From Actinomycetes bacterium (GTDB lineage Bacteria > Actinomycetota > Thermoleophilia > Gaiellales > F1-60-MAGs149): DNA of 64,000 nucleotides. Shown one piece after another: positions 46,392-48,043 of the stretch. The stretch covers positions 85,615-149,614 of the forward strand of contig JANYCN010000036.1 in assembly GCA_025360225.1 (NCBI GenBank). The letters are read 5' to 3'. Position numbers and translations under genes: made by a program. Positions within the stretch are counted from its first letter, which is position 1. Each line of letters begins with the position of its first letter. The notes beneath the pieces were generated by a model. The model was given only the letters and a program-made list of their open reading frames with translations, was not told the DNA's origin and did no database searches.

Positions 46392-46637
46392 ATGCTCGGC
46401 CGGTACGACGACCCCGAGCCACCGCTCCCAACCGGAGCGTCGCCACGGCGTCGGGCGGCCGCGATGATGATCACGCAGATGGGGCCGCTGCAGGCCGCTG
46501 CGGTCATCGAGGAGCTCTCGGCGTTCGAACGCGACTCGCTGATGCTCGAGATCACGCGCCCCGGGCGCGTCAGTGCACTCGAACGCGACCGGGCCCTCGA
46601 CGACTTCACGACCGGGCTCGACCGCAGCGCCTGGTGG
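46392..46637 (+). pseudogene. FliG N-terminal-domain-like fragment
   Basis: RRRAAAMMITQMGPLQAAAVIEELSAFERDSLMLEITRPGRVSALERDRALDDFTTGLDR then runs into repeat element. Confidence 0.5.
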
Positions 46638-46888
46638 TGTGATTGTCAAATGGCATGGTCATCGGGCAGTCAGAGCGAGCGGGAGCGTTGCGCGTCACGC
46701 AGGGGTTGCTGGGGCAAGCGCAAGCGGCGTGCGACGCTCCCGCGAAGCCCACGGCCCGGCACGCTCAGCGGGCCGGATCGTGGTCGCAGTAGCTGGCTGG
46801 CGGAGCCAGCCGACGGGTGGCAGAGCGGACCAGCGCAGGACGATCCAGGCAGCCGAATGACCACGCCACTTGGCAATCAGACCACGAG
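46631..46888. mobile_element. Non-coding element with terminal inverted repeats (MITE-like or IS remnant)
   Basis: 37-nt imperfect IR 46631-46667 / 46852-46888 (30/37 identical; 20/23 core), enclosing hairpins and no convincing ORF. Confidence 0.55.
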
Positions 46889-46915
46889 CATCGCGCGTCC
46901 GGTACGCTCGCTCCC

Positions 46916-48043
46916 GTGCGTATCGTGCTGGTCGACCCCCGCGGTGACGTCCGCCCGTACGCTCACGCGCTCGGCGCGGCGCTCGCCCGCCGCGGCCACG
47001 CCGTCGAGCTGGTGACGTCGCGGTTCCTGCGCGGCGACCTCCCACCCGCCCCCGGCGTGAGGATCCGGGAGCCGTTTTACCGGCTCAGCCGCATCCTGCC
47101 TGCGAGCCTACGACGCGTTGCCTGCGGCCTTGAGCACCCGCTCGACCTCGCGCTCCTGATCGGGCGCCTTGTCGTCAGTCGACCGGACGTCGTGCACCTC
47201 CAGGCGATGCCACTCCCGGCCGTCGATCGCATCGCGTGGCGCGTGGCGCGACGCCTGCTGCGCGGGCGGGTCGTCTACACGGCGCACAACGCGATCGTGA
47301 AGCATGGTGTCGGCTCGCCCGCGCAGGTGCGTGCCGACGCGACGGTGTTTGAACGCGTGATCGTGCACACGGCCGAGGGCGAGGCCTCGCTCACATCGCT
47401 CGGTGTTCGCCGAGAAGCCGTTCGGCGAGTCACGCACGGAGCGCTGACCGCCTACGCTGATGTCGTTGCGATCGAGCCTGCGCGGGTGCCGGAGGGTGTG
47501 CCCGTCGCGGCGTTCCTCGGGCTGATCAGGCCGTACAAGGGGCTCAGCGTGCTGCTGGACGCATGGCCGGCGGTGCGGGTCGCCGTCCCTGACGCGACGC
47601 TTCTCGTGTACGGACGCTCCGTCGGTGGCGATGCGGACGCCGCCCGCGCGGTCGGGCTCGAGCGGTCCGGCGGCTCCGGCGTCGTCGCGGAGATCCGCTA
47701 CGCGAGCGCGGCGGCGTTCGCCGGGGTGCTGCGCCGCGCCGACGTCCTCGTGCTCCCCTATCGCTCGATCGACCAGAGCGGCATCCTCCTCTCCGCCCTC
47801 GCCCTCGGCACGCCGGTCGTCGTCACCGACGTCGGCGGCCTGCGTGAGGTCGTCGAGACAGCGGACGCCGGCGTCGTCGTTCCTCCCGATGACCCGGTGG
47901 CGCTCGCGGACGCCATCGCGGCGTTGCTCGCCGATCCGGTGCGTCGGGCCCGGCTTGCGCGCAACGGTCGCGTTGCCGCCGCTGGCGCGTACTCCTGGGC
48001 GCGTGCTGCAGCCCGCACGGAGGAGATCTACCGAGGCGGCTGA
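46916..48043 (+). CDS. Glycosyltransferase family 4-like protein
   Basis: GLIRPYKGLSVLLDAWPAVR, VLVLPYRSIDQSGILLSALALGTPVVVTDVGGLREVV; GTG 46916. Confidence 0.92.
   Translation: MRIVLVDPRGDVRPYAHALGAALARRGHAVELVTSRFLRGDLPPAPGVRIREPFYRLSRILPASLRRVACGLEHPLDLALLIGRLVVSRPDVVHLQAMPLPAVDRIAWRVARRLLRGRVVYTAHNAIVKHGVGSPAQVRADATVFERVIVHTAEGEASLTSLGVRREAVRRVTHGALTAYADVVAIEPARVPEGVPVAAFLGLIRPYKGLSVLLDAWPAVRVAVPDATLLVYGRSVGGDADAARAVGLERSGGSGVVAEIRYASAAAFAGVLRRADVLVLPYRSIDQSGILLSALALGTPVVVTDVGGLREVVETADAGVVVPPDDPVALADAIAALLADPVRRARLARNGRVAAAGAYSWARAAARTEEIYRGG

Follow-up and report, generated by a model that had tools for sequence, protein, structure and literature searches.

Genes and Features of the Locus

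In the window (the whole 64-kb stretch of DNA that was analysed), an element of 258 bases with inverted ends is located between a short FliG_N-like gene and a gene encoding a group 1 glycosyltransferase, the start codon of which was picked by eye and lies about 30 bp 3′ of the element. The coordinates of the features are collected in Table 1. The in-frame codon at 46632–46634 is TGG in this copy and TAG in most other copies, and the upstream ORF reads through the element as far as 47015. The FliG_N-like gene thus probably once ended at this codon, as the CTAG of the other copies suggests that its ancestral form was TAG.

The two arms match in 30 of 37 positions (20 of 23 in the core), as proposed in the original prediction. 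In the 64-kb window, no other 37-nt inverted repeat with its outer ends separated by up to about 320 bp reached 29 matches. Both ends carry CTAG-like tetranucleotides, CTGG at 46631–46634 and CGAG at 46885–46888, which had been missed earlier. The hairpins noticed at that time proved to be real: 46679–46696 pairs with 46726–46743 in 18 of 18 positions (three of them G-U) and 46752–46758 with 46769–46775 in 7 of 7. In line with the view that the interior holds no convincing ORF, no ORF running across the element was seen to recur among the copies, and conservation tracked the base pairs.

Table 1. Positions of the element, its parts and the adjoining genes in the window.
Feature	Position	Strand	Remarks
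Short gene, FliG_N-like (upstream)	46392–46634	+	Element starts at its in-frame C-TAG stop, here TGG
Whole element, short (~260 bp) form	46631–46888	+ (best-folding strand)	Boundaries from alignment with other copies
Left terminal inverted repeat	46631–46667	+	Contains CTGG as the target-like tetranucleotide; most copies read CTAG here
Arm A, long hairpin	46675–46748	+	Helices 3–5 of the consensus structure
Arm B, hairpin cggcccg/cgggccg	46751–46779	+	
Arm C, branched hairpin	46782–46845	+	Helices 7–9; partly closed by the conserved GGACGATC strand
Conserved motif GCGCAGGACGATCCAGG	46833–46849	+	Kept in G003, largely also in G072/G073
Right terminal inverted repeat	46852–46888	−	End is CGAG
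Group 1 glycosyltransferase gene (downstream)	46919–48043	+	Not part of the element

Copies in the Genome

The genome of the window (G000) is a 3.24-Mb draft in 89 contigs, and all genomes compared here are fragmentary drafts. The blastn search of G000 with the window element returned 94 pieces. The terminal repeat pattern gave 116 + 119 matches (reversed control, 0/0) and the exact outer 14 bases 101 + 89 occurrences (control, 0/0). A profile search of contigs C45 and C78 (334 kb) revealed about 15 copies, which scaled to the genome corresponds to approximately 145. With missed arms allowed for, the total is estimated at about 120–150 copies. The sequence is therefore not a single-copy one, with more than 100 copies indicated by blastn and end patterns, and the arms are not part of a conserved gene, as they recur at unrelated loci; either outcome would have spoken against the original prediction.

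The copies are dispersed, range from 76 to 324 bp and have inverted ends of 30–37 bp. Three size classes were distinguished: the form of about 260 bp found in the window, a long form of about 320 bp carrying a 65-nt double-hairpin insert in the arm A tip, and shorter forms. The shortest copies (C49:59636–59714 and C29:5231–5306) consist of two arms with nothing between them and measure 76–79 bp. Nested copies and internal-deletion derivatives are present as well. The long-form insert (A2 columns 80–150) comprises two near-perfect hairpins strongly conserved across the long copies, and the loop of the second one switches among GAAG, CTTC and GTTCG. In the copy at C50:3338–3592 (L027), a stretch of the copy's own left flank (TTGGACGGCTGACGATCTAG), directly repeated over approximately 20 bp, takes the place of the right end.

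Many G000 contigs start or stop about 140 bp inside a copy. Such breaks would arise if the assembly failed at identical copies, and some copies are thus probably recent; other G000 copies diverge by up to about 20%. Being abundant and frequent at contig ends, the repeat probably limits the assembly of G000.

Terminal inverted repeats, a length below about 600 bp, the lack of a conserved ORF and many dispersed copies are among the features of miniature inverted-repeat transposable elements (MITEs), and these four were found here. Of the identities offered by the original prediction, that of a MITE or structured non-autonomous element is borne out by the high copy number, the inverted ends, the CTAG target and the nested and deletion copies; that of an IS remnant is not, since the matches listed in the assembled contigs include no transposase sharing the element's ends. 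The element had no match among the Rfam covariance models up to E = 10 (the sole weak match, elsewhere, was unrelated) and none in the phage, plasmid and viral collections, and the literature search returned no paper naming this family.

Relatives in the Order

A search of 129 genomes of the order with a covariance model gave matches in G000, G003, G072 and G073 only, i.e., in three genomes besides that of the window, within two families. The model matched the window element at 46631–46889 with 239.6 bits, the element being among the sequences used to build it. G003, from another genus of the same family, contains at least 15 diverged copies of the same architecture, and its loci match VFJZ01. 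G072 and G073 belong to another family, with model matches down to E = 2.5e-26; their copies have internal motifs in common with G000 and fold into the same arms, and their ends read GAGCTCGAATCAGAATGAGCG. Among the relatives, the multi-arm fold was kept, with changes that compensate each other and G-U pairs that stayed fixed, while the terminal sequences diverged. Matches of the motif pattern in other phyla were regarded as chance, since only the VFJZ01 (G003) loci scored with the covariance model.

Target Sites and Stop Codons

The outer tetranucleotide in G000 was CTAG in 33 of 47 left ends and in 34 of 61 right ends, followed by CTCG (6 left ends) and CGAG (18 right ends), and neighbouring or tandem copies have one CTAG in common. 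The variants mirror each other (left CTCG, right CGAG) and are of high frequency, and a simple direct target duplication does not explain them; the CGAG variant follows the body sequence weakly (p = 0.016). In G000, inspection by eye revealed no pattern that would indicate a target duplication of more than 4 bp. Among the paired copies of G072/G073, 6 of 8 had matched TAA, TTA or TGA flanks, corresponding to 3-bp TNA duplications. The target-site duplication that could not be identified at first is accounted for in part: the palindromic CTAG target is mutated at both ends of the window copy, and clear 3-bp TNA duplications occur in the relatives.

Three element-type right ends adjoin the motif AGCCCGTCAAAG (L016 ~1243, − strand; L042 ~1332, + strand; L096 ~15922, − strand), a sequence similar to the end of a further IS bounded by CTAG that was seen in G003 (L205:1–1419).

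CTAG is rare in G000, with 129 free versus about 18 occupied sites in 533 kb, so that approximately one in eight sampled sites holds a copy. The flanking TAG was the in-frame stop of a strong adjoining ORF in 17 of 39 copies; for the free CTAG sites, the count was 27 of 129 (p = 0.007). The gene calls behind these counts were crude (stop-to-stop ORFs with GC3 bias). Joining of the flanks restored a coding ORF in only 5 of 39 insertions, and 35% of CTAG sites fall in coding sequence. The simplest reading is selection against disruption combined with tolerance at stop codons.

Conserved Fold and Strand Bias

The RNA fold predicted for the + strand of the window element had an energy of −153.3 kcal/mol compared with −113.7 ± 4.7 kcal/mol for shuffled sequences (z = −8.4). 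Covariation, named in the original prediction as a check should copies exist, was assessed in an alignment of 14 G000 and 7 G003 copies. The consensus structure comprises 63 pairs, 19 of which changed on both sides; many covarying pairs mirror the split between the genera, and the independent events are accordingly fewer than these counts. Paired cells amounted to 94.5% versus 87.9% in shuffles and 33–44% with slid partners, and the covariation score was reached by none of 500 shuffles. One G-U pair of arm C was found in all 21 aligned copies from the two genera.

The energy of the + strand was lower than that of the − strand in 34 of 36 G000/G003 copies, with a mean gain of 16–21 kcal/mol, and the same was observed in 6 of 6 G072/G073 copies that had not been used for model building. 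Altogether, 40 of the 42 copies, which come from three genera, folded better as the + strand; the copies are related and such counts are not independent trials, the agreement of the three genera being the stronger point. G-U occurred at ten pairs in 20% or more of the copies, a level that A-C reached at no pair; this excess is partly built in, as the structure was predicted with G-U allowed, an effect from which the energy comparison is free. Because one strand folds better in nearly all copies, its internal structure appears to be under selection.

It could be argued that the element is an ordinary MITE whose interior has no role, the fold being a mere by-product of its GC-rich palindromes and its long inverted ends. 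Any inverted repeat folds, the tips of the long form flip as DNA palindromes do, and the long-form copies of G000 taken alone lack double compensatory changes. However, the strand preference in three genera and the G-U in ten pairs, at a level that A-C does not reach, speak against a by-product, as does the finding that the internal arms A and C, beyond the ends, changed on both sides. The explanation of the fold as a by-product was therefore considered rather improbable, and selection on one strand of the internal structure is preferred.

Candidate Mobilizing Transposase

Target duplications of 3 bp with the sequence TNA are known for groups of the IS5 family, and IS630-type elements use a TA target, often inside CTAG. 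The TNA duplications in G072/G073 point to an IS5-type DDE transposase as the likely mobilizer, and CTAG in G000 is compatible with a 4-bp YTAR target. A transposase with the element's own ends (GTGGTCTGATTGTGAAATGG) was not found among the matches listed in the assembled contigs (PF13358, PF13546, PF01609 and end patterns), an absence of little weight given that the assemblies are broken at repeats. An autonomous copy in the form of end pairs 0.8–4 kb apart was likewise not seen among the matches listed or in the stretches examined. Many MITE families are orphans, whose ends are not shared with any autonomous element.

The IS5-type transposases of G000 have ends that differ from those of the element; the IS5-family one corresponds to NCBIfam NF033580, as a fragment just below the cut-off. 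At two loci, C26 (L206 1–616) and C84 (L040 1–308), the C-terminus of this IS5-family transposase joins the right half of the element in the arm A tip; the junction base and the orientation are identical at the two loci, and the flanks differ. The common point at which the reading frame enters the right half might suggest that the intact element carries the transposase gene in this tip and that the copies of about 260 bp are its deletion derivatives. Against this, the divergence is about 3% between the transposase segments (97% identity) but about 11% between the element halves next to them (about 89% identity), and each of these halves is more similar to other copies. The two loci are therefore read as one IS having inserted twice at the tip sequence C-TAA-G, and the divergence does not favour composite transposition of the element together with the gene. 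Moreover, the junction GGACTC-TAA-G resembles the end of that IS at its own TNA target, and the loop without the transposase is the form shared with G003. Nested insertion is the simpler account, and a transposase-bearing ancestor seems very unlikely. In G072, a 132-bp copy lies directly behind an IS5-family transposase remnant, the two sharing one TAA (L207, C163, 3–745).

An IS630-type or IS701-type mobilizer in place of an IS5-type one was judged to have a low probability. Such a mobilizer would fit the CTAG target, an IS630 transposase adjoins a copy at a shared CTAG in G003, and the end of an IS701-type transposase element in G000 is also at CTAG. On the other hand, the duplications in G072/G073 are TNA and not TA or YTAR, DDE_3 is absent from G000, and the terminal sequences of both types are unlike those of the element. 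An IS630 partner was rejected on the absence of DDE_3 and the terminal sequences, and an IS701 partner because the end of the one IS701-type transposase in G000, although at CTAG, has a different sequence. The G003 case comprises a 140-bp diverged copy at the 3′ end of the IS630-family transposase gene, with one CTAG in common (L122, 132–1393). The IS701-type gene lies at L113 (C35, 1–1345), and has the end ...GCACTACTAG; its continuation is apparently located at the end of contig C87 (L211).

Proposed Mode of Action

Based on sequence comparison and structure prediction, the element was judged to be a non-autonomous, IS-derived MITE with a conserved strand-specific RNA fold. Taken as a whole, the data are best explained by a MITE mobilized in trans, located at CTAG and stop codons and carrying a conserved one-strand fold with a role at the RNA level, and this explanation is held to be probably correct. 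In this account, the ends of about 30 bp would be bound in trans by a DDE transposase, most likely one of the IS5 type, which would insert the element at CTAG (TNA in the relatives). Copies would persist where they are harmless, i.e., in intergenic positions or at a CTAG holding the TAG stop of a gene, which is preserved by the insertion. The multi-arm interior, which may work as RNA or as one-strand single-stranded DNA, would have been kept via compensatory change as the terminal sequences diverged. At the 3′ end of an mRNA, the element would probably form a large structured tail affecting transcript ending or stability. Because copies sit on stop codons, an effect of the predicted fold on mRNA 3′ ends is the inference we prefer.

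A stronger version, in which the one-strand fold is the working part of the element, needed by the transposition machinery or by host RNA processing at gene ends, was thought unlikely. If it held, the family could survive while the transposase-binding ends were exchanged between lineages. The diverged ends, the fold kept across two families and the insertion at TAG stops make this family a testable case of what maintains bacterial MITEs, an RNA effect at gene 3′ ends or transposition only. If the RNA role is true, more than 100 loci in one genome would carry it.

Comparison with Known Elements

The transcripts of Correia/NEMIS repeats of Neisseria undergo RNase III processing and the target of these repeats is TA, and ERIC of enterobacteria is about 127 bp long. 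The present element differs from Correia/NEMIS in its CTAG target and in the conserved multi-arm fold of its interior, and no sequence relation between them was seen (no Rfam match). From ERIC it differs in sequence and in the phylum of the host. It nevertheless resembles the former in being short, present in more than 100 copies and provided with inverted ends and folded transcripts, and the latter in intergenic location, high copy number (30–711 for ERIC) and stable transcript structure (PMC10969869).

MITEPsy1 of Pseudomonas syringae is an IS5-related MITE that inserts at CTAG or YTAA, and it is similar to the element described here in being non-autonomous, with inverted ends, CTAG insertion and a proposed IS5-type origin (PMC3189936). 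In contrast to our element, MITEPsy1 is 100 bp long, has few copies and a known partner, ISPsy2, and its transposition was observed, and no conserved internal fold is reported for it in the passages considered (PMC3189936). QMITE2 of Coxiella burnetii is also a MITE used by an IS as an insertion target, with a transcript structure predicted to be stable; it has 7–9 bp direct repeats and an unrelated sequence, whereas in the element described here it is the arm A tip that harbours an IS5-type gene (PMC10969869).
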